Shown here: positions 7,971 to 47,721 of the stretch, piece after piece | Layout: each line of letters opens with the position of its first letter | How positions within the stretch are numbered: position 1 is the stretch's first letter | Source: Solidesulfovibrio magneticus RS-1 | GTDB taxonomy: Bacteria; Desulfobacterota; Desulfovibrionia; Desulfovibrionales; Desulfovibrionaceae | Assembly: GCF_000010665.1 (NCBI RefSeq) | Contig: NC_012796.1 | Span: 310,001-374,000, forward strand | Reading direction: 5' to 3' | Length of the DNA: 64,000 nt | Translations under genes and position numbers: made by a program | Notes under the pieces: generated by a model | Database searches by the model: none | Told to the model about the DNA's origin: nothing | The model's input: only the letters and a program-made list of their open reading frames with translations

Positions 7971-8837
7971 ATGCCCGCCTGCGCCCTCCCGCGATCCCTC
8001 GCCCCGCTTATGTTGTTGGCCGCGGCGTGGATGCTCGTCTCCTGTGCCCGGCCCACGGCCCCGCCGCCGGCCGCTTCCTCCTCGAAAAATCCTGCCGCCG
8101 CCTCGGCCGCCGCCCCGGCCCGGCGGGCTGTTCTGGGCTACGGCGACGAGTTGCTCGTGGCCGTGTGGCGCCACGACGACCTCAAGACCGCCGTGCGGGT
8201 GGACGAAGCCGGGCGCATCCAGCTGCCCCTGGCCGGCGAGGTCACGGCCGGCGGGCGCAGCGTGTCGGAACTGCGCGCCGACCTCACCCGGGCTTACGCC
8301 AAATACCTCGTCGATCCCCAGGTGACGGTGACGGCCCAGAGCCTGCGCAGCCAGACTGCCCTGGTCCTGGGCGAGGTCAAGTCCCAGGGCGTGGTGTCCG
8401 TGGACCACGACATCGTGCTGTTCGAGGCCATCGCCCGGGCCGGCGGCTTCACCGACAACGCCGGCAAGAGCACGGTGGTGCTGTTCCGGGGCATGGATAC
8501 CGACAAGCCCCAGGCCTACATCCTGGATATGAAGCTCGGGACCGGCCTTGGCAAGGGCACGGCCGGCTTCGACCGCTATCTGGAAGGCGGCGACGTGCTC
8601 TACGTGCCCAAGAGCACCTGGGCCAACATCGACGAGTTCCTGGGCCACCTAAACGCCGTGGTCAACGCCTTCATCAATGCCGAGCGCCTGGTCATCTTCC
8701 TGCCGCAGCTGCGCGACGCCATAAACGACCTGTCCCAGGGGCCGGTCAACCAGGTCAACACGGTCATCCAGCAAAGCCAGCCCGTGGCCGGAGAATATTT
8801 AAGCAATCGCCAGGGCGGCGTGACCACGGTGCAGTGA
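7971..8837 (+). CDS. Wza-like polysaccharide export lipoprotein
   Basis: A 288-residue outer-membrane polysaccharide export protein. The signal peptide ends in a lipobox MLVSC, so Cys25 is the probable lipidated residue. The polysaccharide export domain follows a Pro/Ala linker: LGYGDELLVAVWRHDDL, then DEAGRIQLPLAGEV, the hallmark of the family. An SLBB domain follows (VLGEVKSQGVVSVD). The C-terminal part ends NRQGGVTTVQ. ATG 7971 is chosen over the 12-codon-longer start because GAAAGGA sits 8-14 bases upstream and the signal peptide then begins correctly. It overlaps no gene and is one base from the Wzc-like gene, giving the classical wza-wzc pair. Export of a capsule or exopolysaccharide is the expected role. 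Confidence 0.9.
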   Translation: MPACALPRSLAPLMLLAAAWMLVSCARPTAPPPAASSSKNPAAASAAAPARRAVLGYGDELLVAVWRHDDLKTAVRVDEAGRIQLPLAGEVTAGGRSVSELRADLTRAYAKYLVDPQVTVTAQSLRSQTALVLGEVKSQGVVSVDHDIVLFEAIARAGGFTDNAGKSTVVLFRGMDTDKPQAYILDMKLGTGLGKGTAGFDRYLEGGDVLYVPKSTWANIDEFLGHLNAVVNAFINAERLVIFLPQLRDAINDLSQGPVNQVNTVIQQSQPVAGEYLSNRQGGVTTVQ

Positions 8838-16585: not shown

Positions 16586-17200
16586 ATGTCGCAGGAAATT
16601 AGTCTCGAAGCCCGCATGGATATTCTCGCCGAGTGCGTCAACATCGGCCTTGGCCGGGCGGCCGAGGCGCTTAACCGCATGTGCGAAAGCCATGTGGCGC
16701 TTTCGGCCCCGGAAATACGCGTCATGAACCGCCCGACCCTGACCGCCGCCGCCGCCGGCCGTTGCCCGGCCGTGTGCGAGGGCGTGTTTCTGCCCTTTGT
16801 CGGCCCCATGATGGGCATGACCGCCCTGGCCTTTGCCTACGGCGACGCGGCCAAGCTCGTCACCGGGCTCACCGCCGCCATGGGCATCGACGAACCCTCG
16901 GAAGACATGCGCGAGGACACCCTGCGCGAGGTGGGCAACGTCATCCTGGTCGGCGTGCTCGGGGCCATGGGCACCATGCTGGGCCTGCACGTCACCTACC
17001 AGCCCCTGTCCACGGCCAAGAGCCTGGAGCCGCTTCTGGCCGTGGCCGACGCCTGCCAGACCGTGACCCTCTATGTGCGGGCCCATTTCGTGCTGGAGCG
17101 CTTCCAGGTCACGGGCGACATCATGGTGGTGCTGGCCCAGGAGGGCTTTGACGCCCTGACCGCCGCCATTGACGGCAAAATCTTGGAAATGGGCGGTTGA
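16586..17200 (+). CDS. CheC-type chemotaxis phosphatase
   Basis: A 204-residue protein with both halves of the CheC/CheX/FliY active-site signature: ECVNIGLGRAAEALN (Glu and Asn near residues 16-19) and EVGNVILVGVLGAMG near residue 112. CheC proteins remove phosphate from CheY-P and in some species bind CheD. The length matches single-domain CheC. ATG 16586 has GGAGGA 10 bases upstream; a TTG one codon earlier is possible. Its TGA (17198-17200) is two bases before the ATG of the following radical SAM gene, so the two are almost certainly co-translated. No cheD or cheY is adjacent. The pairing of a chemotaxis phosphatase with a radical SAM enzyme is odd. Confidence 0.88.
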   Translation: MSQEISLEARMDILAECVNIGLGRAAEALNRMCESHVALSAPEIRVMNRPTLTAAAAGRCPAVCEGVFLPFVGPMMGMTALAFAYGDAAKLVTGLTAAMGIDEPSEDMREDTLREVGNVILVGVLGAMGTMLGLHVTYQPLSTAKSLEPLLAVADACQTVTLYVRAHFVLERFQVTGDIMVVLAQEGFDALTAAIDGKILEMGG

Positions 17201-17202
17201 CC

Positions 17203-18801
17203 ATGGCCCGGATCGTGCTTTTTTCCCCCACGCCGCCGGACCTGTCGGCTTTTGGCGTGCGCAGCCTGCAAGCCAGCCTCAAGGCCGCCGGCCACGACGT
17301 CCGGCTGGTGCTGTTTCCGGGCAGCATCGGCCTGTCCCAGGAGGACGGCTCCTACGTCTACCGCTACGCCGACACGGTGATCGACCAGGCCCTGGAGCTG
17401 GCCGCCGGGGCCGACGTGGTCGGGGTGTCGTTTTTCACCAACTATTTCGACCGGGCCGTGCAGCTGACGGCGGCTGTGCGGGAGCGCCTGGGCATTCCGG
17501 TCGTCTGGGGCGGCGTCCACGCCACGGTGCGGCCCGAGGAAGCGCTCGACCACGCCGATTTCGTCTGCCGGGGCGAGGGCGAGGCGGCGCTTGACCGACT
17601 GGCCCGGGAACTGGCAACCGGCCGGCCGGCCGACGCCATCCCCGGGGTCTGGACCCTGCGCGACAGGGCGGTGGTCGACAACGGCCTGGCCCCCCTGGCC
17701 CCGGACCTGGACGCCTTGCCCTTTTTCGATTTTTCCGGCCAGGACCAGTTCGTCATGGCTCCGGAGCGCGGCCGCATCGTGCCCCTTGACGCCGAGGCTT
17801 TGCGCCTGGCGCTGCCGCGCCTGCCCCACTGGGACGGCCGGCTGGTCACGGCCTATCGCACCATGACCGACCGGGGCTGCCCGCATGGCTGCGCCTATTG
17901 CAACGTACCCACGGTCAAGGCCCTTTTCCGGGGCGGCGGGGTGCCCTATTTCCGCCATCGCGGCGTGCCCCACGTCATGGCCGAGCTGCGCGGGATCATT
18001 GCCCGCTATCCCTTCATCGAGGCCATCCAGCTTTTTGACGACACTTTTTTCTCCCGCCGTCTGGACTGGCTGCGGGAGTTCGCGGCGGCCTACAAGGCCG
18101 ACATCGGGTTGCCGCTGTACTGCCAGGCCTCGCCAACGACCCTGGACGCCGAGAAGCTCGACGTGCTCATTGAGGCCGGGCTGTGCTACGTGGAAATGGG
18201 CATCCAGACCGGCAGCCCCCGGATGCGCGAGATCTTTCGCCGGCCCGAGGACGACGACGCGGTTCTGGCCGGGGCCAATTTGCTGCATTCCCGGCGGGAC
18301 AAGCTGCTCCCCCCGGACTATCACGTCATCATCGACGCGCCCTGGGAAACGGAAGAGGACCTGCTGGCCACGGTGCGGCTGTTGGCCCGGCTGCCCAAGC
18401 CCTTTGGCCTGGCCATCGCCAGTCTCGTCTATTTCCCGGAAACCGAACTCTACCGTCGGGCCAAGGCCGAGGGCCGCATCCATCACGAGGAAACGGAAAT
18501 CTACCGCCGGCCGTTTTACCTGCGGCCCCAGCGCAGCTATGCCGCCTTTATGCTCTACCTGCTCACCTTCCAGCGCATTCCGGCCGGGGGCTACGCCTTT
18601 TTGCTGCGCCCGGGCACGGTCGCCTGGTGTTCGCGCCATGTGCCGCCGGCCGTGTACAAGCTCGGCTACGCCCTGGGCGAGGTGGCCAGGCTCATGGCCA
18701 AGGGGGCGACGGCGCTGTCGCGCGGCGATTTCGGCCGCATCGCCGCGTTTGTGCGGCGCACCCTGCGCCACGATCCCACCGTGGCCGGGCGTAAGGGCTA
18801 G
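17203..18801 (+). CDS. B12-binding-type radical SAM protein
   Basis: A 532-residue protein with an N-terminal Rossmann-like cobalamin-binding-type domain (residues 1-145; VVGVSFFTNYFDRA, VVWGGVHATVRPEE) and a radical SAM barrel with RGCPHGCAYC (Cys226, 230, 233). The strict DxHxxG cobalamin motif is not seen, as in many members of this class. VEMGIQTGSPRMREIF and VIIDAPWETEEDLL are standard barrel motifs. The C-terminal ~90 residues are basic and partly helical. It is clearly paralogous to the protein at 29533-31065, sharing the order and wording of most motifs. It starts two bases after the CheC stop. The reaction is unknown; this class does methylations, ring contractions and C-C bond chemistry on lipids, peptides and antibiotics. 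Confidence 0.85.
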   Translation: MARIVLFSPTPPDLSAFGVRSLQASLKAAGHDVRLVLFPGSIGLSQEDGSYVYRYADTVIDQALELAAGADVVGVSFFTNYFDRAVQLTAAVRERLGIPVVWGGVHATVRPEEALDHADFVCRGEGEAALDRLARELATGRPADAIPGVWTLRDRAVVDNGLAPLAPDLDALPFFDFSGQDQFVMAPERGRIVPLDAEALRLALPRLPHWDGRLVTAYRTMTDRGCPHGCAYCNVPTVKALFRGGGVPYFRHRGVPHVMAELRGIIARYPFIEAIQLFDDTFFSRRLDWLREFAAAYKADIGLPLYCQASPTTLDAEKLDVLIEAGLCYVEMGIQTGSPRMREIFRRPEDDDAVLAGANLLHSRRDKLLPPDYHVIIDAPWETEEDLLATVRLLARLPKPFGLAIASLVYFPETELYRRAKAEGRIHHEETEIYRRPFYLRPQRSYAAFMLYLLTFQRIPAGGYAFLLRPGTVAWCSRHVPPAVYKLGYALGEVARLMAKGATALSRGDFGRIAAFVRRTLRHDPTVAGRKG

Positions 18802-22714: not shown

Positions 22715-24841
22715 TCAGGCCAAGGCCCGCCGGTAGGCGGCCACGGCCATGGCCGCCGTGTCGTTCCAATCAAGCCGTTTTGCCCGGGCCAGACCCTTGG
22801 CCCGCAGTTCCGCGGCCAGTTCCGGCTCGGCCAGCACCCGATAAAGGGCCTCGGCCAGGGCCTGCGGGTCGGACGGATCGACCAAAAGCGCCGCGCCGCC
22901 GGCCGCCTCGGGCACGGCCGGGGCCAGGCTTGCCACCACCGGCGCGCCGCAGGCCATGGCCTCGACCACCGGCAGCCCGAATCCCTCGCCAAAGCTCGGA
23001 TAGGCAAAGACCGCCGCCCCGGACAGCAAGGCCGGCAGCTCCGCCTGGGCCACGCCGCCGCAAAAGACAATGCCTTCCCCCGTTCCCGCTTCGCGCAGCT
23101 TCTGGCCGAAGGCGGCGAAAAGCCCGTCGTCCGGCCCGGCGATGACCAACGTGGGCGCTTGCGCCCCCAGCCGCCGACGCAGCAGGGCATAGGCCGCCGC
23201 CAGCCCAGGCACGTTTTTTCGCGGCTCCATGCGCCCCAAAAAAAGGATGTAGGGACCACCCGGCAGCCCCAGGCGGGCGCGCATGTCAGCCAGGGCGGCC
23301 GGGTCCGTCACCGGGGCGAAGGCCGGGTCCACCCCGGGAAAGGCGTAGGCCACGCGCGTGGCCGGCACGCGGTAGCGGGCGACGATCTCGTCGCGGCAAT
23401 AGGCCGACAGCGTCAGCACCCTGGCCGCCCGGCGGGCGCCCAGGGGATAGAGCAGCCGCATGAGGCGGGAAAGCCCCTTGGGGAAATGCTCGGGCATGGC
23501 TTCGTGCAGGATGTCGTGGAGGCTGACCACGCAGGGGACCGTGGGGGTGAGCGGCGCGAGGTACTGGCAGTGGAAGACGTCGACTTCCCGGCGAAGCCGC
23601 CAGGGGAAGGGGGCGATCAGCCGGGCCAGACGGCCGGCGGGGATCTCGCGCACCGTGACGTTGGGGGCGTCTCCGGCCAGGGTCCGGGCCGCGTCCAGGC
23701 CATCCCGGGTGGCGTAGAAGACGAAGTCGAGGTCCGGGGCGGCCTGGGGCAGCCGGGCGGCCAGGGCTTCGATGTAGGTGCGCGACCCCTGGCGGATGCC
23801 GGAAATGGTGTGGAGATCAAGGCCCACCCGTTTTGGGGTTGTCCCATGCGGCGGGCGGCAGGCTGTCCGGGACAGCACGCGGTCGGCCAGCCCCCGGGCC
23901 AGGCCGGCGGCAAAGGCCAGGGAGCGCAGCGTGACGAACATCGGGGCCAGACGGGCCACGGCCCTGTCGCGCCGGGCGGCGAAGCGGGCAAAGGGCAGGG
24001 CGCTGCCCAGCAGCGCGGTCAGGGCAACCAGGGCGAACAGGCCGGCCGGCCGGGAGAACGGGGCCAGGACCGTGGCCAGGGCGAACAGCCCGGCCAGGAT
24101 GGTCTGGAGGCGGATGACCGGCGGGGTGTAGCCGTCGCGCACGAGCTTTTCGGGGTGTTCCCGGCAGGCGCGAAGCCGCCAAAAGGCCCGGCTGGCCTTG
24201 ATGGTCAAGTAGCGGCCCAGGGTGGCCGGATGGCGATGATAAACGATGGCGTCCGGGGCGAAGACCAGCCGGTGGCCGGCGGCGGCCAGCCGGTAGGACA
24301 GCTCGGTGTCCTCGTTGTCGGCCGCCCGGAAGGACGTGTCGAAGCCGCCGGCCGCATCAAACACCGCGCGGCGGTAGGCGGCGGCGTAGGTGGCCACGAG
24401 GTCGATGGCCGGACGCCTGGCGACATAGGCGTAGCGGTCCTCGAACTCGATCTGGGCAAACCGGGCGACAAGCGACGTCTGGCGGGTGCGGTAGGCACCC
24501 TGGACGCCGGCAACGGCCCCATCGTCCAGGGGGGCGGTGAGGCGGGCCAGGAAATCCGGGGCCGGGGCGCAGTCGGCGTCGGTGAAAACAAGGATGTCGC
24601 TGTCCGGCGGCGCGGCGGCGGCTCCGGCGTTTCGGGCGGCGGCCGGCCCGGCGTTTGGCTGGGAAATGACGGCCACGCCCCTGGCCCGGGCCATGGCTGC
24701 GGTGGCGTCGGTGGAGCCGTCGTCGACCACGATGACGGAAAACGCCGACCGGGGCATGGTCTGGGCAGCCAGGGCGTCCAGGGCGTCGCCCAGGGTGGCG
24801 GCGGCGTTGTAGGCCGGGATGACGACGGTCAGGCGGGGCAT
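22715..24841 (-). CDS. GT2-GT4 fusion glycosyltransferase
   Basis: A 708-residue protein made of two glycosyltransferases. Residues 1-235 are a GT2 (GT-A) domain: VVIPAYNAAATLGDALDAL, VVDDGSTDAT, FTDADCAPAPDF and the acceptor-site ADNEDTELSYRL. Residues 240-320 hold two or three membrane helices. Residues 338-708 are a GT4 (GT-B) domain with GIRQGSRTYIEAL, LFLGRMEPRKN and the E-x7-E block FGEGFGLPVVEAMACGAPVV. The reading frame is continuous. GGGGAG lies 7 bases before ATG 24841. It is the last gene of the 22715-33873 operon, 10 bases after the radical SAM gene. It probably adds two successive sugars at the inner membrane; the sugars are unknown. Confidence 0.9.
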   Translation of the reverse strand: MPRLTVVIPAYNAAATLGDALDALAAQTMPRSAFSVIVVDDGSTDATAAMARARGVAVISQPNAGPAAARNAGAAAAPPDSDILVFTDADCAPAPDFLARLTAPLDDGAVAGVQGAYRTRQTSLVARFAQIEFEDRYAYVARRPAIDLVATYAAAYRRAVFDAAGGFDTSFRAADNEDTELSYRLAAAGHRLVFAPDAIVYHRHPATLGRYLTIKASRAFWRLRACREHPEKLVRDGYTPPVIRLQTILAGLFALATVLAPFSRPAGLFALVALTALLGSALPFARFAARRDRAVARLAPMFVTLRSLAFAAGLARGLADRVLSRTACRPPHGTTPKRVGLDLHTISGIRQGSRTYIEALAARLPQAAPDLDFVFYATRDGLDAARTLAGDAPNVTVREIPAGRLARLIAPFPWRLRREVDVFHCQYLAPLTPTVPCVVSLHDILHEAMPEHFPKGLSRLMRLLYPLGARRAARVLTLSAYCRDEIVARYRVPATRVAYAFPGVDPAFAPVTDPAALADMRARLGLPGGPYILFLGRMEPRKNVPGLAAAYALLRRRLGAQAPTLVIAGPDDGLFAAFGQKLREAGTGEGIVFCGGVAQAELPALLSGAAVFAYPSFGEGFGLPVVEAMACGAPVVASLAPAVPEAAGGAALLVDPSDPQALAEALYRVLAEPELAAELRAKGLARAKRLDWNDTAAMAVAAYRRALA

Positions 24842-24851
24842 GCCACTCCCC

Positions 24852-26324
24852 TTACACCTTGGAGCCGCGCAGCAGGTGCTTCAAGAATACCCGGCCGGCC
24901 CGCAGGGTCCGGGCCATTTCGCCGGGGCTTGCCAAGGCGGCCAGGGCACGGCGGATAAGAAATTGCGGCCGCAGGTAGAACCGTTTGCGGGCCAGGTCGC
25001 ACAGCCGCACGATCTCGGCCGGATACAGCGACTCGTTGCGCACCACGCAGCCGTGCAGGCCTTCGGGGGTGAGCCAGTCGCGCCAGCGGCCGGCGGCGAT
25101 AAATCCGCGCGCCTCGTAGTCGGCGAAGGCCTCGGTGCCGGGATAGACCATGACCGGGTAGAACTGGGCGGTTTCCGGATTGAGGTCCAGGGCGAAGTCG
25201 ATAGTGGCCAGGATGGACTCCCTGGTGTCGCCGGGGAAACCGAAAATGAAGCAGCCGTGGATTTTTATGCCGGCGGCGGCGGCGTCGGCCCGGAAGCACC
25301 GCATGCGCTCGGCGCCCAGGCCTTTTTTCATAGCCGACAGGGCCGTGGGGTCGGCGGATTCGAAGCCCACGCAGAGTTGCCGGCAGCCGGCCCGGCGCAT
25401 CAGGCCCATGAGGTCCGGGTCCAGATCGGCCCGGGCGTTGGCCGTCCACTCGAACACCAGCCCCCGGCGGATGATGGCCTGGCAAAAGGCCCGGCAGCGG
25501 ACCTTGTCGGCGGTCAGGGTATCGTCCTCGAAAAAGATGGTGCGAAGGCCCGGGAAGTGGTCCAGGCACCAGGCGACTTCGTCCAGCACCTTGTCGATGG
25601 AGCGGCAGCGGGCGGTGCGGCCGGTGAGGGTTTGGGGGTGCAGGCAAAAGGAGCAGCGAAACGGGCAGCCGCGCGAGGTGGCCAGGGTGACCATGGGCGG
25701 CTTGGCGTTGGGATTGAAATAGTGCCGGATGTCGAGGTGGCGGGCGTAGACCGGGGCCACGGGCGGCAGGGCGTCGAGGTCCTCGATAAACGGCCGGTCC
25801 GGGTTGTGGACGACGACGCCCCCTGCCCCCAGAAACGACAGGCCGTCCACGGTGGCCAGGCGCTGCGGTGTGGCCGGTCCGGCGGCCAGGAGCCGGGCCA
25901 GTTCCAGGACGGTGGCCTCGTACTCGCGCCGGGCCACGGCGTCCACGGCCCCGCGTCCGTCCTGGAGCACCTTGCCGGCCAGGGCCGTGGCATGGGGGCC
26001 GACCAGCACGGTGGTCAGTCCGGGCAGGGCTTTTTTCAGGGCGGCGGCGGCCTTGATGTCGGCGTCGATGCTCGGGGTGGAGGTGTCCAGCACGGCTAAA
26101 AACGGCGTTTCGGCCTTGGCCCGGGCCACGACGGCGTCGAGGTCCAGGCCGGCGGCCGGGGCGTCCACGAAGACGACCTCGAAGTCGTCGGCTTCGAGCA
26201 CGGCCACGGCCTGGGCCAAAAACAGCGGGAAATAGAGCGTGCCGCTCTTGGTCACGGCCGGGGAGCGCTGGGGCCGGGAGAATTTGGGCAAAAATGGGGC
26301 GTTTACAACCAAAATATCGGCCAT
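24852..26324 (-). CDS. B12-binding-type radical SAM protein
   Basis: A 490-residue enzyme: cobalamin-binding-type Rossmann domain (1-150; LVVNAPFLPKFSRPQ, VLVGPHATALAGKVL), then a radical SAM barrel with SRGCPFRCSFC (Cys220, 224, 227), FFEDDTLTADKVR, CVGFESADPTALSAMKKG and HGCFIFGFPGDTRESI. The C-terminal ~90 residues are basic and resemble the tail seen in other envelope-linked members. AAGGACG precedes ATG 26324. It follows a GT2 gene after an 87-base gap that holds hairpin copy B, and precedes the GT2-GT4 fusion by 10 bases. It is less similar to the other two radical SAM proteins in the operon than those of the 17203/29533 pair are to each other. Substrate unknown. Confidence 0.87.
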   Translation of the reverse strand: MADILVVNAPFLPKFSRPQRSPAVTKSGTLYFPLFLAQAVAVLEADDFEVVFVDAPAAGLDLDAVVARAKAETPFLAVLDTSTPSIDADIKAAAALKKALPGLTTVLVGPHATALAGKVLQDGRGAVDAVARREYEATVLELARLLAAGPATPQRLATVDGLSFLGAGGVVVHNPDRPFIEDLDALPPVAPVYARHLDIRHYFNPNAKPPMVTLATSRGCPFRCSFCLHPQTLTGRTARCRSIDKVLDEVAWCLDHFPGLRTIFFEDDTLTADKVRCRAFCQAIIRRGLVFEWTANARADLDPDLMGLMRRAGCRQLCVGFESADPTALSAMKKGLGAERMRCFRADAAAAGIKIHGCFIFGFPGDTRESILATIDFALDLNPETAQFYPVMVYPGTEAFADYEARGFIAAGRWRDWLTPEGLHGCVVRNESLYPAEIVRLCDLARKRFYLRPQFLIRRALAALASPGEMARTLRAGRVFLKHLLRGSKV

Positions 26325-26340
26325 GTCGCGTCCTTTATAT

Positions 26341-26386
26341 CCCCTATGGGGGGTCCGGGGGCCTCAGGCCCCCGGCCGCCGGAGGC
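26341..26386 (-). repeat. Dispersed intergenic hairpin element, copy B
   Basis: Same layout as copy A: CCCC-TAT-GGGG (26341-26351), stem CCGGGGGCC/GGCCCCCGG with loop TCA (26355-26375), tail GGCCGCCGGAGGC (26374-26386). It lies just past the stop of the minus-strand GT2 gene, inside the operon. The stem sequence differs from copies A and C while pairing is kept. Confidence 0.7.
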
Positions 26387-26411
26387 ATCTTCCTCTTGCT
26401 CTTGCCCTTGC

Positions 26412-27260
26412 TCAGTCTCCCACCCTGGCCTCGACGGCGGCCAGCCGGCGTTCCAGGGAGGCGACGCGGCCTTCGAGGCCGGCGGCTTTTTCGGCCAGCC
26501 GGGTGCGGTGGGCCATGGATTCGGCCATGAGGTCGTCGAGGATCAGATTCTTTTCAAACCAGGCCCGCAGCAGGGTGCTGAGGTAGCGCCGGCCCATTTC
26601 GGTCAGGTGCAGGTTGGAGCTGCCCCAGGTGCGGCCCTGCCAGGAGATGGGCACCATGGCGATGGCGTAGCCGCGAATAAGCGTATTGAGCGACAGTTCG
26701 ATGGTGATGTTGAAGTGGCAGGCCTTGAGCGGCATGATGTCGCGGATGACGTAGGAGCGATAGGCTTTGAAGGAGTTGGTCAAGTCGTTGAAGCGCGTCC
26801 AGAACATGATCTGCATCATCTTGTTGACAAGGCGGTTTACGAAGAGCTTGAGCTTCGGGTAATTGACGCAGCGCGAGCCGCGCATGAACCGCGAGCCGAA
26901 GACGCAGTCGTAGCCTTCCTCGATCTTGCGGTAGTATTTGATGATGTCTTCGGGGTCATCGGACAGGTCGGCCATGCAGATGACAATGACGTCGCCGCTG
27001 GCCCGTTCCAGGCCGGCGCGCACGGCCCGGCCGAAGCCACGCGGCGGCTCGCGGTGGACGACCACCACGCCCGGGTCAGCCTCGGCCAGGGCGTCGAGAA
27101 CCGCGCCGGTGGCGTCGGCGCTGTTGTCGTTGACCAGCACCAGTTCGTAGGGAACGCCTTCGCGGCGCAGCACGGCGCGGATGCCGTCAATGGTGGCGGT
27201 GATGTTGCCTTCCTCGTTGTAGGCCGGGATGACGACGGACAGCAGCATGGCGTTTTTCAT
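26412..27260 (-). CDS. Polyprenyl-phosphate-sugar-type GT2 glycosyltransferase
   Basis: A 282-residue GT2 of the dolichyl/polyprenyl-phosphate mannosyltransferase type: VVIPAYNEEGNITATIDGI, VLVNDNSADAT, MADLSDDPEDI (the DxSDDP metal-site variant), GSRFMRGS and the conserved LTNSFKAYRSYV. These enzymes charge undecaprenyl phosphate with one sugar for later use by GT-C enzymes such as the one at 11163. There are no clear membrane helices. The last ~25 residues form a short coiled coil (LEGRVASLERRLAAVEARV). The start is ATG 27260 or ATG 27248. It sits between the acyltransferase and a radical SAM gene in the operon. Confidence 0.88.
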   Translation of the reverse strand: MKNAMLLSVVIPAYNEEGNITATIDGIRAVLRREGVPYELVLVNDNSADATGAVLDALAEADPGVVVVHREPPRGFGRAVRAGLERASGDVIVICMADLSDDPEDIIKYYRKIEEGYDCVFGSRFMRGSRCVNYPKLKLFVNRLVNKMMQIMFWTRFNDLTNSFKAYRSYVIRDIMPLKACHFNITIELSLNTLIRGYAIAMVPISWQGRTWGSSNLHLTEMGRRYLSTLLRAWFEKNLILDDLMAESMAHRTRLAEKAAGLEGRVASLERRLAAVEARVGD

Positions 27261-27320
27261 GGGCAGGCTCGCTTTGGCGGTGGCGTTGGGGCGCGATTGT
27301 GTCCGAGGGGGGCGCGGGCT

Positions 27321-28241
27321 TCAAGAAAAAAGATGGGTTTCCAGGCCATGCCACCAGCCGGGCCGGGAGGCGACCCGGTCGGCGTAGCGGGCCATGAACG
27401 CCCGGGTCATGGCCAGGGCGGCCGCGTCGCGGTCCATGCCCTGGGGCGGGATGATGGGCGCGTCCAGAACAAAACGGAAGGGGGCGTCGCGTCCGGGTTC
27501 GAGAAATCCCGGCACAAGCGCCGCCCCGGCCGACAGGGCCAGCCGGGCCGGGCCAAGGGGCACGGACAGCGCCCCGCCCGGGAACTCCACCGTGGCGTGA
27601 TGGCCGAAGGCGGGCTGGCCCGGGCCGTCGTCGGCCGTGGTCATGACCACGCCCCCGGCGCGCAAGTGGGTGAGCGCCAGGCGCACGCCCGGCCCGGGCG
27701 GCACGATGCGGGCCGGGATGCGGGCTTCGTAGCGCGCCCGCAGGCGGAAGGCCACGCGGCGGCCGACAAACGACAAGCCCTCGTCCGAAAGGTGGCCGAT
27801 CTGGACCATGGGGAAGCCCAGCGCTCCCAGGGCGGCCAGGGGCATCTGGGTCGGGCCGAAGTGGCCGATGGGGATGACCGCGCCCCGGCCGTGGGCCAGG
27901 GCCAGCCCCAAGCGGTCGAGGCCGTCGATTTCCAGCAACTCGTGGAAATTGGCGGCGGTCAGGCGCGGCAATTGAAAGACGATGAGCTGGTTGACGTAGT
28001 GGGTGGCAAAGGCGTCGAGCACGGCTTGTTCCGCCTCGGCCTCGGCAAGGGCGGGATTAACGGCCCGGGCGGCGATAGCGATGCGCCCGGCCCGGCCCCG
28101 GGACAGGGCGGCGTGGAGCCGGCCCATGGCCCGGTAGAGGGCCACGGCCGCCCGGGGCGGCAGGCGCTCGGCGACAAGGCGCAGGGGATACCAGACGAAA
28201 AGGCGCAGCAGGTCACGGGAGAAGCTTTCGCGCACGCGCAC
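27321..28241 (-). CDS. LpxL/HtrB-like acyltransferase with altered active-site motif
   Basis: A 306-residue protein of the lysophospholipid / lipid A late acyltransferase family: N-terminal hydrophobic stretch, long helices with HYVNQLIVFQLPRLTAANFHELLEIDG, then the catalytic block GHFGPTQMPLAALG, followed by AGGVVMTTADDGPG and a VPLGPARLALSAGAALVPG block. The family active site is H-x4-[D/E]; here the fifth position after His is Gln (HFGPTQ), so activity may be altered or use another acid. The start is GTG 28241, two bases after the upstream radical SAM stop. It is in mid-operon, implying that the product is acylated or acyl-carrying. Membrane association is likely. Confidence 0.8.
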   Translation of the reverse strand: MRVRESFSRDLLRLFVWYPLRLVAERLPPRAAVALYRAMGRLHAALSRGRAGRIAIAARAVNPALAEAEAEQAVLDAFATHYVNQLIVFQLPRLTAANFHELLEIDGLDRLGLALAHGRGAVIPIGHFGPTQMPLAALGALGFPMVQIGHLSDEGLSFVGRRVAFRLRARYEARIPARIVPPGPGVRLALTHLRAGGVVMTTADDGPGQPAFGHHATVEFPGGALSVPLGPARLALSAGAALVPGFLEPGRDAPFRFVLDAPIIPPQGMDRDAAALAMTRAFMARYADRVASRPGWWHGLETHLFS

Positions 28242-28243
28242 GG

Positions 28244-29536
28244 CTATTTCCCGGCGGCCCGCAGCAGCAGATCGAAGCCCTTTTCGATCCAGGCGGTTTT
28301 TGGCTGGGTGTACATGACCGGCGCAAGCAAGTCGGCGTCCGGGGGGATAATTCCCTCGGCCACGGCCCGGCGGGCCAGGGCGGTATGGGGCTCGACCCGG
28401 ATGCTGTTGAGCTCGAAGTGGGCTTTCCTGCCCATCTCGCGGCGGGCCTTGAGGATAAAGCGCAGCATGGCCAGGGCCGCCTTGGCGGTCTGGCCGGGCG
28501 GGTTCTTGAAGAAGTTGTAGCTGACCTCGAAGCAGCCCAGATCGCGCACCAGGGCGTAGGCAGCCTCGATCTCGGCCACGGACGAGGCCTTGCCCAGGGC
28601 ACCCAGCGCCTCATCGCTAAAGGCGTCCGGCGAAAAGATCACGGTGTCGCAGCCGGCCCGGCGGGCCAGGGTCAGAAAATCGCGCGTGAGTCCCCTTTCG
28701 GCGAACCAGGCCGACCAGGGCAGGGGCGAACCGGCTTCGATGAGGGCCTCCATGACGGCGGCGGCATGGTCGGCGGGCAGATTGAAGACCGAATCGAGGA
28801 AGGTGAACCGCCGCGCGCCGTGGACGTCGCGAAGGGCGACGACCTCGACCGCCACCTGCCCGGGGGCTTTGCGGCGGTAGCGCCGGCCGTTGAGGAACCC
28901 GTAGGGACAGTAGACGCAGGCAAGCGCGCAGCCGCGCTTGGTCTCGACGCCCACGCCCCAGGGCACGGCGACGTAGGGGGCCAGGGGCAGGATGGAAAAA
29001 TCCGGGGAGGGCAGGTCGGCCAGATCGATCTTGTCCGAGGGGCCGGTGAAAAACGGGCTGCCGTCTGGCCGGCGGGTCCAGAGCGAGGGCACGGCGGCCG
29101 GGTCGCCCCGGGCCTCCAGGGTCGCGGCCAGGGCGGCGAAGGCGGCTTCGCCTTCCAGGGCCACGCCGTGGTCGATGGCCGGCCAGCCGGCCATGACGGC
29201 CTCGGCGAACATGGAAAAACCGGCCCCGCCGACCACCACCGGCCCGGTTGTCTCCTGCCTGGCCACGGCCACGGTTTCGCCAAAGGGCGGCAGATAGGAG
29301 ACGTTGACCCGGGTGTTGGTGGAGTCGATGTTGCGCAGGGAAACGCCGGTGAGGTCCGGGGCGAAGTCGCGCAGGAACCCGGCCAGGGCGGCCATGGGGT
29401 CGCCAGGGGCCACGTTGGGGTCAAAGGCGGCCACGACATGCCCCGGCAGGCTGGCGGCCAGGGAGGCCAGGCCGATGGGGAAAACCGGGTCTGTCGTGCC
29501 GGGGCCGAGCCAGGATTGGACCAGGGCGATTCTCAC
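28244..29536 (-). CDS. B12-binding-type radical SAM protein
   Basis: About 430 residues starting at GTG 29536, which overlaps the previous stop by four bases (GTGA). The N-terminal part is Rossmann-like (IALVQSWLGPGTTDPVFP, GVSLRNIDSTNTR, VVVGGAGFSMF), followed by a radical SAM barrel with KRGCALACVYCPYG (Cys203, 207, 210). FTFLDSVFNLPADHA and SYNFFKNPPGQT are later barrel motifs. The N-terminal domain lacks DxHxxG. ATG starts far upstream in the same frame are rejected because they overlap the preceding gene. It is tightly coupled to the genes on both sides (4-base overlap, 2-base gap). Substrate unknown. Confidence 0.86.
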   Translation of the reverse strand: MRIALVQSWLGPGTTDPVFPIGLASLAASLPGHVVAAFDPNVAPGDPMAALAGFLRDFAPDLTGVSLRNIDSTNTRVNVSYLPPFGETVAVARQETTGPVVVGGAGFSMFAEAVMAGWPAIDHGVALEGEAAFAALAATLEARGDPAAVPSLWTRRPDGSPFFTGPSDKIDLADLPSPDFSILPLAPYVAVPWGVGVETKRGCALACVYCPYGFLNGRRYRRKAPGQVAVEVVALRDVHGARRFTFLDSVFNLPADHAAAVMEALIEAGSPLPWSAWFAERGLTRDFLTLARRAGCDTVIFSPDAFSDEALGALGKASSVAEIEAAYALVRDLGCFEVSYNFFKNPPGQTAKAALAMLRFILKARREMGRKAHFELNSIRVEPHTALARRAVAEGIIPPDADLLAPVMYTQPKTAWIEKGFDLLLRAAGK

Positions 29537-31065
29537 GCGTGGTCCCCCGGCCGGGCGCGCCAGCTTCGGGCCAGGCGCAGGAGCTTTTTGACCGGTTCGG
29601 CCAGGGCGAACACGGCCCGCCAGACCGGGGCCATGACCGGCTGGGACAGGGGCACGGCCACGGCGTCGGAAGCCAGCCAAGCCAGGAGCTTTGAGGGCAT
29701 CCGGCCGCCCTTGGCCAACAGGATCAGCAGGTTGACGTAGTCCGGCCGGCGCATGGTGTAGCTTTTGGTATAGACCTGCCGGCGCTCGTCGGTGAGAAAT
29801 CCGTCGGCGGCGGCCATGGCGTGGAGCTTGGTGCCGGGGTAGAGCACCAGGGAAAAGGGCTGGAGCCGGAAAGGCTTGGGGATCTGGGCGATAAAGCGCA
29901 CCGATTCCAGACGGTCGGCCAGCGTCTCGTAGGGCGTGTCCAGGATGAAGTCGTAGCTCGGCGGCAGGAGCTTGTCCTTGTAGGCGTTGATGACGGCCAT
30001 GGCTTTTAACATCACCGCGTTGCCCATGGCCTTGCGGTTGAACAGTTCCTGGATGCGGGCCGAGCCGGTCTGGACGCCCATTTGCAGATAGCATAGGCCG
30101 GCGTCGGTCAGGGCGTCGAGCTTTTCCCGGGTGATGGTGGCCGGCGAACCCAGGCAGGTGAAGGGCAGGCCGACCCGGGCCTTCCACTGGCGGCAAAATT
30201 CCCGGATTTCTTCCAGGGGCCGGGCGAAAAAGGCGTCGTCGGAGATCCAGACGTAGCCGATATGCGGCAGTGTCCGGCGCACGGTCTCCAGCTCGGCCAT
30301 GACGTGCTCCGTGCCGCGCCAGCGCAGATAGCCCTTGGCCCCGTACAGGGCCTTGACCGCGTCGTTGACGCAGTAGGCGCAGCGATGGGGGCAGCCCCGG
30401 CCGGTCATGGTCTGGTAGCCGACCCGGCCGAGCAGCCGCGACACCGTGCCCCGGGCCAAAAACGCCTCGGTCATGGCCGGGGTCAAGGGCACAATGCCGT
30501 CCTGGGGATGCTCGGGGTCCCAGATGTGGTGGTCGTCGTGGGACCAGTCAGGCGGCGGCAGGCTGTCGAGGTCCTGGGTCAGGGGGCGCACCGGATTTTG
30601 GGCCAGGCAGCCGTCGGCGCGCCGGGTCCAGATGTTGGGGATGGCCGTGGCGTCGTTGCCGGTCGCCAGGGCTTCGGCCAGATCGGCCAGGGCTTCCTCG
30701 CCGTCGCCCACGCAGACGTAGTCGGCGACGGCCAGGCACTCCTCGGGCCGGATGGTCGGATGCACCCCGCCCCAGACCACGGGCGGGCCGCCGGCATCCC
30801 CCAGCGCCCGGGTGATCTGGGCGGCGTTGTCCACGTAGTTGGTCATCAGCGACACCCCGACCAGGGAACAGTCAGCGCACAGCCGGACCAGATCGGCCAT
30901 GACGTGGGCCGGGTAACGCTCGGGCGCGTCCAGCAGGGCGTCCCCCAGGGGATCGGGCAAAAGGATCAGGCGCACGGCCAGGCCTCGGGCCTTGAGATAG
31001 GCGGCGATGGAGCGCAGGCCGTAGGCGGTGATGTCGGGATAGGGGGAGATCAGGGCGACGCGCAT
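29533..31065 (-). CDS. B12-binding-type radical SAM protein (paralogue of 17203-18801)
   Basis: A 510-residue enzyme. The N-terminal cobalamin-type domain has LISPYPDITAYGLRSIAAYL, LVGVSLMTNYVDNAA and VVWGGVHPTIRPEE. The radical SAM site is GRGCPHRCAYC (Cys225, 229, 232), followed by WISDDAFFARPLEEI, CYLQMGVQTGSARIQELF and DFILDTPYETLADRL. The sequence parallels the 17203 gene along its whole length, so one is a duplicate of the other or both came from the same ancestor. ATG 31065 has AAAGGA about 9 bases upstream; longer starts to 31269 are rejected as Arg/Pro-rich shadow. It overlaps the next radical SAM gene by 4 bases. Substrate unknown. Confidence 0.87.
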   Translation of the reverse strand: MRVALISPYPDITAYGLRSIAAYLKARGLAVRLILLPDPLGDALLDAPERYPAHVMADLVRLCADCSLVGVSLMTNYVDNAAQITRALGDAGGPPVVWGGVHPTIRPEECLAVADYVCVGDGEEALADLAEALATGNDATAIPNIWTRRADGCLAQNPVRPLTQDLDSLPPPDWSHDDHHIWDPEHPQDGIVPLTPAMTEAFLARGTVSRLLGRVGYQTMTGRGCPHRCAYCVNDAVKALYGAKGYLRWRGTEHVMAELETVRRTLPHIGYVWISDDAFFARPLEEIREFCRQWKARVGLPFTCLGSPATITREKLDALTDAGLCYLQMGVQTGSARIQELFNRKAMGNAVMLKAMAVINAYKDKLLPPSYDFILDTPYETLADRLESVRFIAQIPKPFRLQPFSLVLYPGTKLHAMAAADGFLTDERRQVYTKSYTMRRPDYVNLLILLAKGGRMPSKLLAWLASDAVAVPLSQPVMAPVWRAVFALAEPVKKLLRLARSWRARPGDHA

Positions 31066-31171
31066 GGCATGGTGTCCTTTGGCGCGACGTCGCGCCCAGG
31101 GGTTGTGCGATGCCGGCGGTGGTCTGTCAAGGCAGGGGGGCGGCGGCCTTGGCCGTCGCGGCCGGGAGACG

Positions 31172-32389
31172 TCACCGGGTCGCTGCCTTGTAGGCCTTGT
31201 AGAAGTCGAGAATGTGCGGCGGGCAGCCGGCCACGAAGCGGGCCACGTTTCCCGGCCGGCGCACGTCAAAGGCCAGGGGCGCGGCGCAGGCTCCGAAACA
31301 CCAGAGCTGGCCGGGCACGTTTCGCAGATTGACGGCCTGGGGCATGGGCACGCCGAGATAGACGGTGTGGGGCGTGCCGGCGGCGAAGCCGTCCTCGGTG
31401 GCCAGTTTGTCCAGGGCGTGGCGCAGGGCCGATTGGCAGCCCTGGCAGGCCCCGCCCTCGATGACCCGCACGGCGGGATAGGCCCCCATGGAGCTCAGGA
31501 CCGGCCGGACAAACCGCCGTCGGCAGCGGTCCGGATCGTCGCCGGCCACGTCGATGGCGGCCAGGTCGGTCTCGCCCAGGCCCTCCTGGCGGGCCAGACG
31601 CAGCATGGCCACCTCGTTGGCGGCGATGCCCATGAGGTCGGCGCAGACCGTATCCACGGCGCAGACGTCCGCGCCGGCCACGACGACGTTCATGTCCGGC
31701 AGGCTGGACCCGGACAGCGGGGCTTGGCCCTGCACGGCCCACAGCCCGTCCACCACGGTCAGATGGGGCCGGATGGCCCGCAGGATGTCCACGATCTTGA
31801 GGTTGATGTCGTTGCGGTGAAACGGCATCCGGTTGTCGTCGAGAATGAGTCCGTATTGGTTTTTGATGCCCAGGGTCACCAGGGTGTGCACGTGGGTCTT
31901 CATCTTGGGCAGGTTGATGTAGACCTCGGCTTCAAGCACGGCCTGGGGCAGGGGCACGGGGTCGAAGAGAAAGGCCCCGGGATTGGGGACCGGGACCGGC
32001 GGCTTAGCGTCGAAAGCGACCAGCTGCGCGCCTTCGGCCTCCAGGCGGTGCAGGAAGCCGGACAGACCGGCGGTGGCCTCCAGCAGGGACAGGCCCCAGC
32101 CCGGGTTGTCGCCCACGGCAACCGACCGCGCCCCGGCCCGGACAAGGAGCCGGACCATGGCCAGGATCACCCGTTCGTCGGTGACCACCGACCGGGGGCT
32201 GGCCGGATTGGGCCGCACGAGGTTGGGCTTGAGAAAGACCGACTTGCCGCCGACCAAGGCCGGCAGGTCACAGCAGACGGCCACGGCCCGGTCGACCAGC
32301 GCCGTCACGGCGGTCAAGCCGGCCTCGGTGTAATTGTCCGGGGCCTCGCCGATTACGGCGTGGGCGAGTCCGACACAAGGGCGCGCCAT
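31172..32389 (-). CDS. DUF362-family Fe-S protein
   Basis: A 405-residue protein matching the DUF362 family: FLKPNLVRPNPASPRSVVTD, VGDNPGWGLSLLEATAG, INLPKMKTHVHTLVTLGIKNQYG and the VDTVCADLMG block. The C-terminal third contains Cys clusters (EGGACQGCQSAL, LWCFGACAAP, FVAGCPPH) that could bind an iron-sulfur centre. DUF362 proteins are of unknown reaction and occur with radical SAM and adenylating enzymes. ATG 32389 has AGGAGG about 10 bases upstream and lies within the preceding ligase gene (37-base overlap). A 106-base gap follows before the radical SAM gene. An electron-transfer or reductive role is a guess. Confidence 0.85.
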   Translation of the reverse strand: MARPCVGLAHAVIGEAPDNYTEAGLTAVTALVDRAVAVCCDLPALVGGKSVFLKPNLVRPNPASPRSVVTDERVILAMVRLLVRAGARSVAVGDNPGWGLSLLEATAGLSGFLHRLEAEGAQLVAFDAKPPVPVPNPGAFLFDPVPLPQAVLEAEVYINLPKMKTHVHTLVTLGIKNQYGLILDDNRMPFHRNDINLKIVDILRAIRPHLTVVDGLWAVQGQAPLSGSSLPDMNVVVAGADVCAVDTVCADLMGIAANEVAMLRLARQEGLGETDLAAIDVAGDDPDRCRRRFVRPVLSSMGAYPAVRVIEGGACQGCQSALRHALDKLATEDGFAAGTPHTVYLGVPMPQAVNLRNVPGQLWCFGACAAPLAFDVRRPGNVARFVAGCPPHILDFYKAYKAATR

Positions 32390-33873
32390 GCGATCTTGCC
32401 TCCTGGAGTGCGGGGAAGGGCGTCGCGGATTTCGATGACCCGCGGCATTTTCAGGCGGTGCAGCCGGCCGGACAGGAAACGGCGCAGCTCGCCGGGACTC
32501 AAGGACGCGCCGTTTTTCGGGGCGACCACGGCCTTGGCCGCCTCGCCGCGCAGGGCGTCGGCCACCGGAATGACCACGGCCTCGGCCACGTCCGGGTGCT
32601 GGCGCAAGGCCTCCTCGATCTCCACCGGAAAGACCTTCATGCCCCCGACCTTGAGCAGCATGGATTGGCGGCCGGCGAAGAAAAAGCGTCCGTCCCCGTC
32701 GTGAAAGACCTCGTCGCCGGTGCGAAAGCGGCCGCCGTAAAGGCGAAATTCCGGCCGCGGCTCCTCGCCGAAATAGCCCGGGCAGACGCCCGGCCCCGAT
32801 ATTACCAGCTCGCCGGGTTCGCCCGGGTCGCAGGGCGAGCCGTCCTCGCGGGTGACGGCCACGTCGTAGCCGGGCACGGGCCGGCCCAGGCAGCACGGGG
32901 CGTAGGCGTCGCCCGGGCGGTTGGCCAGGGCCACGCCCGTGGTCTCGGTGCTGCCCCAGACGGGCAGGATCGACGCGCCAAAACGCTCCCGAAGGCCGGC
33001 TGCCAGGGCCGAGGGCACGTGCATGCCGCCGGATTCGGCCAGACGCACGGCGGCAAGCGGATTGTCCGCCCCGGCCGGCAGGCGCAGCAAGGTTTCGTAG
33101 ATGGCGGCCACGGCCATCAGCGCCGTGACCTTGTGGCGGGAACACGCCTCGGCCACGGCCCGGGACGAAACCCTGTCGCAAAGGACCATGGTTCCGCCCA
33201 GAGCCAGGGGGCGCAGCAGGGTCTCGTGGGGGTGGACGAAAACCGGCATCATGCACAGGTGAACGTCGTCGGGGGTCAGGGCGAAGGCGTCAATGGCGGC
33301 CGCGGTATTGGCCAGGAGGTTGCCCAGGGTCGTCACCGCGCCCTTGGGCGCGCCGGTGGTGCCGGAGGTGAAGTTCAAATAGACCGGGTCGTCGGGTTGG
33401 ACCCGGGGCAGGGCGGCGGGCATGGGGCCGGCGGCCAGTTCGGCCAGGGTCGGCTTGCCCGCCGGGGCCGGTCCGTCGCAGACCACCGTGGGCATGGGCG
33501 CGTCCTCGGGGTAGAGAGCGGCCAGGGCCGGCAGGTATTCGGCGGCCACGACCAGGACCGCCGGGGTCAGGCGGTCGAGGATGGCCCGGGTCACTTCGGG
33601 CGGCTGGTTGGGGTCCAGGGGGAAAAAGGCGCCGCCGGCAGCGGCGGCGGCCAGGAAGGCGGTGACGGCCTGGGGCGTTTTACGGGCATAGACGGCCAGA
33701 CGTTGGCCCGGGGCCAGACCCAGGCCGGCCAAGCCGCCGGCTAGACGCAGGGCGGCCTCGGCCAGGGCCTCGTGGGACACGGACACGTCGCCGGACAGGA
33801 TGGCCGGCGCACCGCCCCGGACTTGGGCGTTTCGACGCAGCATCCCGGCCAGGGTTTCGTCATCTTGGAACAT
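32353..33873 (-). CDS. AMP-forming acyl/aryl ligase (adenylation enzyme)
   Basis: A 506-residue member of the ANL superfamily: P-loop LNFTSGTTGAPKGAVTTLG (about 166-184), WGSTETTG, RFRTGDEV and the C-terminal catalytic-lysine region PRTPGGKIAW. These enzymes activate a carboxylic acid with ATP and load it on CoA or a carrier protein. No acyl-carrier gene is adjacent. ATG 33873 begins MFQDDETLAGML at the usual distance from the first domain; longer starts are rejected. It is the first gene of the eight-gene minus-strand operon and overlaps DUF362 by 37 bases. The acid substrate cannot be read from sequence. Confidence 0.9.
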   Translation of the reverse strand: MFQDDETLAGMLRRNAQVRGGAPAILSGDVSVSHEALAEAALRLAGGLAGLGLAPGQRLAVYARKTPQAVTAFLAAAAAGGAFFPLDPNQPPEVTRAILDRLTPAVLVVAAEYLPALAALYPEDAPMPTVVCDGPAPAGKPTLAELAAGPMPAALPRVQPDDPVYLNFTSGTTGAPKGAVTTLGNLLANTAAAIDAFALTPDDVHLCMMPVFVHPHETLLRPLALGGTMVLCDRVSSRAVAEACSRHKVTALMAVAAIYETLLRLPAGADNPLAAVRLAESGGMHVPSALAAGLRERFGASILPVWGSTETTGVALANRPGDAYAPCCLGRPVPGYDVAVTREDGSPCDPGEPGELVISGPGVCPGYFGEEPRPEFRLYGGRFRTGDEVFHDGDGRFFFAGRQSMLLKVGGMKVFPVEIEEALRQHPDVAEAVVIPVADALRGEAAKAVVAPKNGASLSPGELRRFLSGRLHRLKMPRVIEIRDALPRTPGGKIAWRALVSDSPTP

Positions 33874-33960: not shown

Positions 33961-34028
33961 GCAGTCCGCGAGGGCATGGCGCGTCGGCCCGAGCCGCTTG
34001 GCGCATGATACGGACGCGTGGAGATTTT

Positions 34029-34379
34029 ATGAGACAGCACCGATATTACCTTGGACTCATGGCCGCTGTGCTTCTGGTTTGCCTGATGGTGCTGGCCGCC
34101 GGCTCGGCTGGCGCGGCCAAGGCTGATGACGACGGCAAACCGCTGAAGACCGGCGTTACGATAACCGGCATCGTTGAAGACGACTATACCGACGGCCTGC
34201 TCGTCACCACCGAGGACGGCACCAGCTACATGGTGTTGACCCCCGAGGAAGTGAGCCTGGAGCAGGAAGAGGCATTTCACAAGAAGTTCAAGGGGCAGTC
34301 CGTGACGCTGACGGGCAATGTCTTTCGGGATGAGGACGGATCGCTGAGTCTGTTTGTGATGAATCTGCCGGCGCAATGA
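34029..34379 (+). CDS. Small exported protein, OB-like, unknown function
   Basis: A 116-residue protein with a signal peptide (cleavage near residue 29, AGSAGAAKA) and a mature part rich in beta strands: TGVTITGIVEDDYTDGLLVT, SYMVLTPEEVSLEQEEAFHK and QSVTLTGNVFRDEDGSL. This spacing of short strands and a helix resembles small periplasmic OB-fold proteins, but I recognise no named family. GGAG precedes ATG 34029 by a few bases. It is alone on the plus strand, divergent from the ligase operon. It lies at the edge of the lower-G+C region. Confidence 0.75.
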   Translation: MRQHRYYLGLMAAVLLVCLMVLAAGSAGAAKADDDGKPLKTGVTITGIVEDDYTDGLLVTTEDGTSYMVLTPEEVSLEQEEAFHKKFKGQSVTLTGNVFRDEDGSLSLFVMNLPAQ

Positions 34380-35121: not shown

Positions 35122-35261
35122 GCTTGCTCCTCAACGGTTCGGCGTAAAGGGCTGGCGTCCGCAGATATTTTATTCTAGAAGCGGAATCATCGTTTTGCAA
35201 GCCATTTTCCAAAGCGAAGGAATTGCCCTTTTGTTGGCCAGTTAGTTGATGTGAGGTTCTT

Positions 35262-47709: not shown

Positions 47710-47721
47710 CAGTTCCTCCGA

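Follow-up and report, generated by a model that had tools for sequence, protein, structure and literature searches.

A conserved gene set with an unusual load of B12-type radical SAM enzymes in Solidesulfovibrio magneticus RS-1 and its possible role in glycolipid or surface glycan assembly

Eight genes on one strand and the families of their products

We analyzed a 64,000-nucleotide (nt) stretch of the Solidesulfovibrio magneticus RS-1 genome (hereafter, the window), and focused on a run of eight genes within it, g1 to g8 (positions 22715-33873; proteins P0001 to P0008). The genome (G000) comprises 5,315,620 bases in 3 contigs, and the window corresponds to positions C2:310001-374000 of contig C2 (5,248,049 bases). 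On balance, we favor the view that this operon forms the largest part of a conserved system, spread over several loci, that makes an acylated, radical-modified glycolipid or lipid-anchored surface glycan. Loci read in relatives are given as L numbers, and genes in them were named by BLAST against our own protein set unless Pfam is mentioned.

All eight genes are open frames on the minus strand. According to their coordinates, g1 and g2 overlap by 37 nt and g3 and g4 by 4 nt, and the remaining junctions are gaps of 106 (g2/g3), 2 (g4/g5), 60 (g5/g6), 87 (g6/g7), and 10 nt (g7/g8). A preliminary description of this DNA had reported the same single strand, gene order, overlaps (4 and 37), and gaps (2-106), and all the family names that it proposed were also recovered with Pfam. 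Gene calling was trained on g1 to g8 themselves, so it constitutes no independent evidence for them. Simple consensus scans, which are weak evidence and incapable of showing co-transcription, found no terminator-like site on the minus strand in the three larger gaps and a sole minus-strand promoter-like match at 35200, 1.3 kb before g1, where one match is expected by chance. A phage origin was rejected: PHROGs matches were limited to g1, g6, and g8, and the matching entries were ligase-like unknowns and glycosyltransferases.

The first gene, g1 (P0001, 506 aa, 32353..33873), encodes an AMP-forming acid ligase (Pfam AMP-binding, 250.9 bits), and its best 25 of 106 NCBIfam rows, mainly acyl-CoA ligases, are all below their cut-offs. 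It is followed by g2 (P0002, 405 aa, 31172..32389), a DUF362 protein that scores 149 on the Pfam family (PF04015) against a gathering threshold of 24. Structures were predicted for this protein and for the acyltransferase described below, and fold comparison revealed that the N-terminal domain of g2 adopts a LarA-type fold, followed by a C-terminal part that bears cysteines. Identity between g2 and LarA rows is 12-18%, and a PDB sequence search with g2 alone returned no match. In a sequence-profile search aimed at the LarA residues, the best 60 of 181 PDB rows matched the C-terminal ferredoxin part. DUF362 and LarA already share one Pfam clan, according to passages of PMC11770544. LarC was found in 21 of 24 carriers, but this test is non-discriminating because LarC is also present in 6 of 14 control genomes. 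The genome of RS-1 holds a second DUF362 gene, of the ferredoxin-bearing type (C2:861196-862410, L133), which is unlinked here and lies inside the cluster in other phyla.

Three genes encode B12-type radical S-adenosylmethionine (SAM) enzymes, here named rSAM3 (g3, P0003, 510 aa, 29533..31065), rSAM4 (g4, P0004, 430 aa, GTG start, 28244..29536), and rSAM7 (g7, P0007, 490 aa, 24852..26324), each matching the Pfam B12-binding and Radical_SAM domains. The cysteines of the CX3CX2C motif occur in all 15 aligned rows of rSAM3 and in all 12 of rSAM4, and the radical SAM core of rSAM7 was read directly from the protein sequence. With a B12-binding domain and a CX3CX2C core, the three proteins belong to class B, and cobalamin binding is predicted for them. 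The nearest relative of g3 among the named records listed is from S. magneticus MBC34 (95%). A g3 paralogue, rSAM3' (17203..18801, plus strand; identified by Pfam, 43% to g3), is the fourth B12-type radical SAM enzyme of the set and directly precedes rSAM3 in L042, L043, L060, L070, L071, and L116. Upstream of rSAM3' lies a gene for a CheX-like protein (16586..17200, plus strand; Pfam CheX), and such a gene is also found upstream of rSAM3 in L039, L041, and L056, and farther away in L040 and L057. It is unusual for one conserved set to include four B12-dependent radical SAM enzymes. According to passages of a preprint (PMC13142503), only a few non-methylating enzymes of this kind are known.

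The nearest family of rSAM7 is HpnJ (TIGR03471), on which it scores 365.5 bits over nearly the whole model against a cut-off of 577.6, and five of its orthologues score 356-433, compared with 699 for a true HpnJ control. In genome G200, a true HpnJ (699) lies beside a hopene cyclase and an HpnK-like gene (220.6, cut-off 232.6), and the rSAM7 orthologue (433) is on a different contig. Squalene-hopene cyclase had no match in G000 nor in 13 of the 17 other carriers searched, and was present in 4 of all 18. Judged by these sequence comparisons, rSAM7 is not HpnJ, since it scores below the HpnJ cut-off, the true HpnJ of G200 is separate, and a hopene cyclase was mostly not found. A hopanoid pathway was rejected for G000 on the missing cyclase match and the HpnJ score. 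By analogy, the likeness to HpnJ suggests the kind of chemistry that rSAM7 may perform: passages of PMC12583986 state that HpnJ acts last, converting a glucosaminyl lipid to a cyclitol ether.

The acyltransferase g5 (P0005, 306 aa, GTG start, 27321..28241) has a PatA/LpxM fold and matches Pfam Lip_A_acyltrans with 37.9 bits (gathering threshold, 22.3). PatA is its best PDB match by both sequence and fold, and all 14 matches of the fold search at E < 0.001 are PatA or LpxM; on the PatA equivalog NF005919, it scores 52.5 against a cut-off of 209. H127 and D204 are each kept in 15 of 15 aligned rows. The acid of the HX4D/E motif is replaced by Q in 13 of the 15 rows, and by H and L in the other two. 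Passages of PMC9597891 report that VexE, a capsule acyltransferase, is likewise devoid of this acid and works with the pair equivalent to this His and Asp. The preliminary description had singled out the absence of an acyl-carrier gene, and indeed a PP-binding search (other genes of type II fatty acid synthesis were not searched for) found 3 matches in G000 and none in the window. That absence need not be notable, however, because g5 is nearest to PatA, which uses acyl-CoA (passages of PMC9597891).

The two glycosyltransferase genes are g6 (P0006, 26412..27260; Glycos_transf_2, 106.8 bits) and g8 (P0008, 708 aa, 22715..24841; Pfam Glycos_transf_2 and Glycos_transf_1). The former encodes a family 2 glycosyltransferase (GT2) that resembles polyprenyl-phosphate sugar synthases, with its top NCBIfam rows below cut-off, and the latter is a GT2-GT4 fusion whose halves are separate genes in L038, L043, L135, L138, and L139.

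The best NCBIfam match of rSAM4 is BzaD (TIGR04385), with 230.3 bits across nearly the whole protein (cut-off, 450), and the rows of rSAM4 and rSAM3' include the ladderane-associated TIGR04072 (211.1 and 90.2 bits). These latter rows favor an alternative in which the product is a modified membrane lipid and never a surface glycan: the radical SAM enzymes would remodel acyl chains by forming rings or chain-chain bonds, the PatA-like enzymes would esterify, and the glycosyltransferases would only add a head group. In the same direction point L060 and L043, where PatA-like genes flank the rSAM3'-rSAM3-rSAM4 run on both sides, each beside a B12-type radical SAM gene, and the proposal that cyclobutane and cyclopentane rings of lipids are products of such enzymes (passages of the preprint PMC13142503). 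However, neither TIGR04072 score reaches the cut-off of 360, the window has no acyl-carrier domain, unlike the ladderane clusters described in passages of PMC2649909, and the window or the fuller clusters also contain Wza, Wzc, Wzx, Wzy_C, and PMT_2 genes. We consider a pure membrane lipid to be an unlikely, though still serious, alternative to the glycolipid or lipid-anchored glycan; the ladderane pathway as such is disfavored by the TIGR04072 scores and the missing acyl-carrier gene.

Conservation in the genus, the order, and other phyla

The eight genes stand in one row and in the same order in three genomes of the genus (the window, L034, and L037), with g6 and g7 spaced 1.2 kb apart in L034 and 0.56 kb in L037. 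The neighborhood check proposed in the preliminary description thus found an order that is shared with L034 and L037 and not unique to this genome. L035 and L036 stop after g6, and L038 has no g6 and a split g8. Outside these genomes, the set falls into the modules [1-2], [3-4-5(-6)], and [7-8]. Within the first module, g1 and g2 are adjacent in all 11 genomes read that have the g2 type (the window, L034-L038, L135, and L137-L140). Not all eight genes belong to the core, because g6 was seen only in the genus, and the g2 type only there and in two further genomes.

Co-occurrence was assessed in the same 199 genomes of the order. We found rSAM3 (E<=1e-80) in 11 of them and rSAM7 (E<=1e-100) in 12, including those 11; the same 11 have rSAM4 at E<=1e-90, a threshold placed post hoc in the gap that separates 2e-93 from 8e-51. 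Counted by genus, all 3 genera with rSAM3 are among the 4 of 43 with rSAM7 (chance 3e-4, assuming independent genera). Pairwise distances of rSAM3, rSAM4, rSAM7, and GT2 increase together outside the genus (r 0.68-0.90). In G116, G095, and G093, rSAM7 is retained at 21 kb to several hundred kb from rSAM3. A family genome without rSAM3 at the limit used contains an rSAM7-like gene (G103:C2:16085-17512; 39%).

A scan of named genomes with the rSAM3 family yielded 61 loci, and we counted the 21 whose rSAM3 has at least 50% identity; the 40 uncounted ones, which include rSAM3-like tandem arrays of Coatesbacteria, have rSAM3 below 50% or only rSAM3', one of them with rSAM4. In every one of the 21 counted loci, rSAM4 lies directly downstream of rSAM3, and this adjacency is more than chance; six of these loci come from the window's own group. 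The same loci contain a PatA-like gene in 19 cases, rSAM7 (at least 45%) in 9, and DUF362 in 9. The two without a PatA-like gene are L065, a 3.1-kb contig, and L061, whose contig has one farther on (L126). The 21 loci belong to Solidesulfovibrio, Desulfovibrio, a Desulfobacteraceae metagenome-assembled genome (MAG), Nitrospirae including Candidatus Magnetominusculus, Planctomycetota, deltaproteobacterial MAGs, and Marichromatium gracile.

Some of these loci, and others from the scan, merit separate mention. The Nitrospirae carriers L062, L063, L065, and L073 include Candidatus Magnetominusculus, which is magnetotactic, as is D. magneticus; many other carriers are not known to be so. L081, L082, L083, and L087 (Coatesbacteria and one other bacterium) have three or four rSAM3-like genes per locus and no rSAM4. 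L103 comes from a Planctomycetia MAG whose isolate name contains AMX; its rSAM3-like gene (31%) has a Wza and two phosphodiesterase matches nearby.

We also searched 13 further carriers, chosen for their rSAM3 match (12 at >=50%, G211 at 42%), and found rSAM7 in all of them at 46-61% identity; at least one of them, Desulfovibrio sp. W18, probably belongs to the window's order. A GT2 gene directly adjoins rSAM7 in 7 of these 13. Two blocks recur. In the first, a phosphodiesterase gene is followed by a second PatA-like gene, rSAM3', rSAM3, and rSAM4, with a flippase gene ahead in some genomes. The second, GT9-DUF362-rSAM7, is found in this order in 9 of the 13 (in G206, only an rSAM7 fragment lies directly there). 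A molybdopterin oxidoreductase gene follows the second block or lies near rSAM7 in five genomes (L115, L123, L124, L126, and L132); one of these genes is confirmed by Pfam and the others cluster with it, that of L124 being formate-dehydrogenase/PhsA-like with scores under the cut-offs.

That the modules lie apart in several genomes could indicate unrelated cell-envelope genes gathered in one region, with no joint pathway. Against this, the modules are retained in a genome even when apart, and the same neighbors recur in other phyla; this explanation was already disfavored, and we regard it as very improbable.

Further genes of the set in the window and in fuller clusters

Several other genes of the window have counterparts near the set elsewhere. 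On the minus strand, a type I phosphodiesterase gene (1720..3351; Pfam Phosphodiest) adjoins a Wzx/MurJ-type flippase gene (3342..4823; Pfam Polysacc_synt, 45.4 bits), as also in L070, L125, and L044. A Wza-type polysaccharide export protein (7971..8837, plus strand; Pfam Poly_export and SLBB) is encoded in the same region, so a flippase and an outer-membrane export protein, the pair looked for as a sign of a Wzx/Wzy locus, occur together (3342-4823 and 7971-8837). The following gene (8839..11028, plus strand) is a Wzc-type candidate by its position after Wza and 29% identity to L125:12860-15055, a gene that matches Wzz and AAA_31; the candidate itself has no Pfam match. Next to it lies a gene for a membrane glycosyltransferase with a PMT_2 domain (11163..13919, plus strand; Pfam PMT_2), and in L037 a PMT_2 gene lies right after g8 and convergent with it. 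A flavin adenine dinucleotide (FAD)-dependent, amine-oxidase-type enzyme fused to a radical SAM/SPASM protein (14016..16409, minus strand; Pfam) has its two parts encoded by separate neighboring genes in L135, and Pfam confirms the SPASM relative L042:4529-5593.

A small protein with a signal-like start (34029..34379, plus strand) is encoded divergently from g1. We found the gene at 11 loci in 8 genomes, all of them from the genus, and it has this orientation at every one, including loci with a split operon; no counterpart was seen in L137 or L140, and no Pfam family scores above cut-off. Positions 34000-50000 of the window, with a G+C content of 0.47-0.56 compared with ~0.7 around, look like an insertion beside the operon. 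A 1766-aa protein encoded there contains three GT4-type stretches, and two other proteins have methyltransferase domains.

Far from the window, G000 contains a second, unlinked PatA-like gene (C2:5228359-5229321); it and g5 are the only two matches of the A3 profile in this genome. It is present in 11 of 11 carriers of the order (only carriers were surveyed), and its relatives directly precede rSAM3' in several other genomes.

Fuller clusters are found in other genomes. L044 has the order Wza, rSAM4, acyltransferase, phosphodiesterase, and Wzx, and in L125 the genes for Wza, Wzc, CpsB, Wzx, a phosphodiesterase, and a priming sugar transferase lie beside rSAM3, rSAM3', and rSAM4. The fullest contig (L124/L125) adds a priming sugar transferase (Bac_transf), a Zn-alcohol dehydrogenase, Wza, Wzc, CpsB, and Wzy_C, all confirmed by Pfam, and an AMP ligase without Pfam confirmation. 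Such clusters, with their Wza, Wzc, CpsB, Wzx, Wzy_C, priming transferase, and glycosyltransferase genes, would also suit a pathway for a Wzx/Wzy surface polysaccharide that yields no separate lipid product and in which the B12-type radical SAM enzymes C-methylate or deoxygenate the sugars and the PatA-like enzymes acylate them. In keeping with that idea, the best PDB match of both rSAM7 and rSAM3 is AprD4, an enzyme that acts on an aminosugar. However, polysaccharide loci usually differ between strains, whereas this gene set is conserved across phyla. In addition, the characterized PatA-fold enzymes described in passages of PMC9597891 use lipid-bound or nucleotide sugars as acceptors of long acyl chains. 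A polysaccharide of this kind appears rather improbable.

A proposed pathway and its comparison with known systems

The preliminary description read the operon as producing a modified lipid or glycolipid. That remains the most likely kind of product, but the operon is not the whole pathway, since its partners are kept despite a split operon and the fuller clusters add further genes (Wza/Wzc/Wzx, a second PatA-like acyltransferase, a fourth B12-type radical SAM enzyme, an FAD enzyme, and a radical SAM-SPASM protein). A modified lipid or glycolipid pathway with borders wider than the operon is plausible, and we rate the set as a probable envelope glycolipid/glycan assembly with an unusual load of B12-type radical enzymes. 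Consistent with the preliminary description, searches limited to open-licence PMC papers listed no description of a pathway with this set.

Protein families, conserved residues, gene order, and co-occurrence are what the data show; the substrates, sequence of steps, and product given next are inferred. The AMP ligase g1 would activate a carboxylic acid, and this may be a 2-hydroxy acid on which the LarA-fold g2 acts. The GT2 half of g8 (its first half) would place a sugar on a lipid at the cytosolic face, and the HpnJ-like rSAM7 may then rearrange the lipid-bound sugar in the manner of HpnJ. PatA-like enzymes (g5 and the unlinked second one) would esterify a sugar hydroxyl from acyl-CoA, and rSAM3, rSAM3', and rSAM4 may alter the chain or the sugar further by C-C or C-methyl chemistry. 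A polyprenyl-phosphate sugar, possibly produced by g6 in this genus, would be the substrate of the PMT_2 enzyme on the outside. Finally, Wzx would flip the product and Wza/Wzc-type proteins would export it, an export step that rests on gene neighborhood.

The proposal is favored by the co-occurrence and linkage of the radical SAM genes with PatA-like genes, the export genes near them in L044 and L125, the likeness of g5 to PatA with its His and Asp kept and the parallel to VexE, the HpnJ likeness of rSAM7 with GT2 genes beside it, and the jointly rising distances. Several observations weigh against it. In the carrier table, g6 is present in 5 of 7 genomes of the genus and in none of 14 others; the table omits G104, G089, and G068, for which the rSAM7 gene was not fetched whole. 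The g2 type was seen only in the window's genus, G093, and G203 (blanks for g1 and g2 in the latter two are not absences, because L137 and L140 lie outside the table). Of 24 carriers searched, 3 gave no match for LarC, which the LarA cofactor requires, and 3 gave none for a DUF362 of the A4 type. A single genus accounts for nine of the 11 genomes in which the radical SAM genes co-occur, which is why the figure is also given by genus. The correlated distances fail to tell joint transfer from shared descent. Only 7 of the 21 counted loci have an export or phosphodiesterase gene within the fetched stretch, and no priming transferase or polymerase was recognized among the part of the window's genes that was scanned. 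The second PatA-like gene may serve another function.

The set supplies a pathway context for DUF362 proteins and offers searchable markers, i.e., rSAM3 followed by rSAM4, plus rSAM7 in the genome. Since it is present in named cultured organisms (Solidesulfovibrio species and Marichromatium gracile), the product can be sought directly, and it may reveal a new lipid or glycan marker for anoxic habitats. More tentatively, the product could represent a new class of surface lipid. It would be a glycolipid, or a glycan anchored to a lipid, in which rSAM7 has produced a ring-contracted or carbocyclic sugar and three other B12 radical enzymes have joined or methylated chain or sugar carbons, with use of a 2-hydroxy acid on which the LarA-fold DUF362 protein acts. 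The system behind it is patchily distributed, probably as a result of transfer, and its carriers are sulfate reducers, Nitrospirae (of which some are magnetotactic), Planctomycetota, and a purple sulfur bacterium.

Among known systems, the HpnI-HpnK-HpnJ cyclitol-ether step of hopanoids resembles the set in having a glycosyltransferase gene near an HpnJ-type B12 radical SAM gene, and differs in that rSAM7 is under the HpnJ cut-off and G000 has no hopene cyclase match. Like the set, the ladderane clusters of anammox bacteria and Desulfotalea combine several radical SAM genes with oxidoreductase, ligase, and glycosyltransferase genes (passages of PMC2649909), whereas the window has no acyl-carrier gene and its rSAM4 and rSAM3' stay under the cut-off of the ladderane-associated model. 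BzaD, a radical SAM enzyme of the B12 lower ligand, is the top NCBIfam match of rSAM4, but below cut-off. The N-terminal fold links g2 to the LarA lactate racemase superfamily, from which it is set apart by low identity (12-18%) and its cysteine-bearing C terminus. With PatA, LpxM, and VexE, g5 has in common the fold, the catalytic His, and an acid at the position of PatA E200, and with VexE, the lysophospholipid acyltransferase (LPLAT) of the Vi-capsule anchor, also the missing HX4D/E acid (passages of PMC9597891). It differs from this group in the Gln at that motif, in having no tetratricopeptide repeat (TPR) part as seen in VexE, and in being partnered with several B12-type radical SAM genes. 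Lastly, Wzx/Wzy loci are matched by the Wza, Wzc, CpsB, Wzx, Wzy_C, and priming transferase genes of the fullest cluster, but the set departs from them in its up to four B12-type radical SAM genes, two PatA-like enzymes, and DUF362, and in the molybdopterin oxidoreductase found in five of its genomes.

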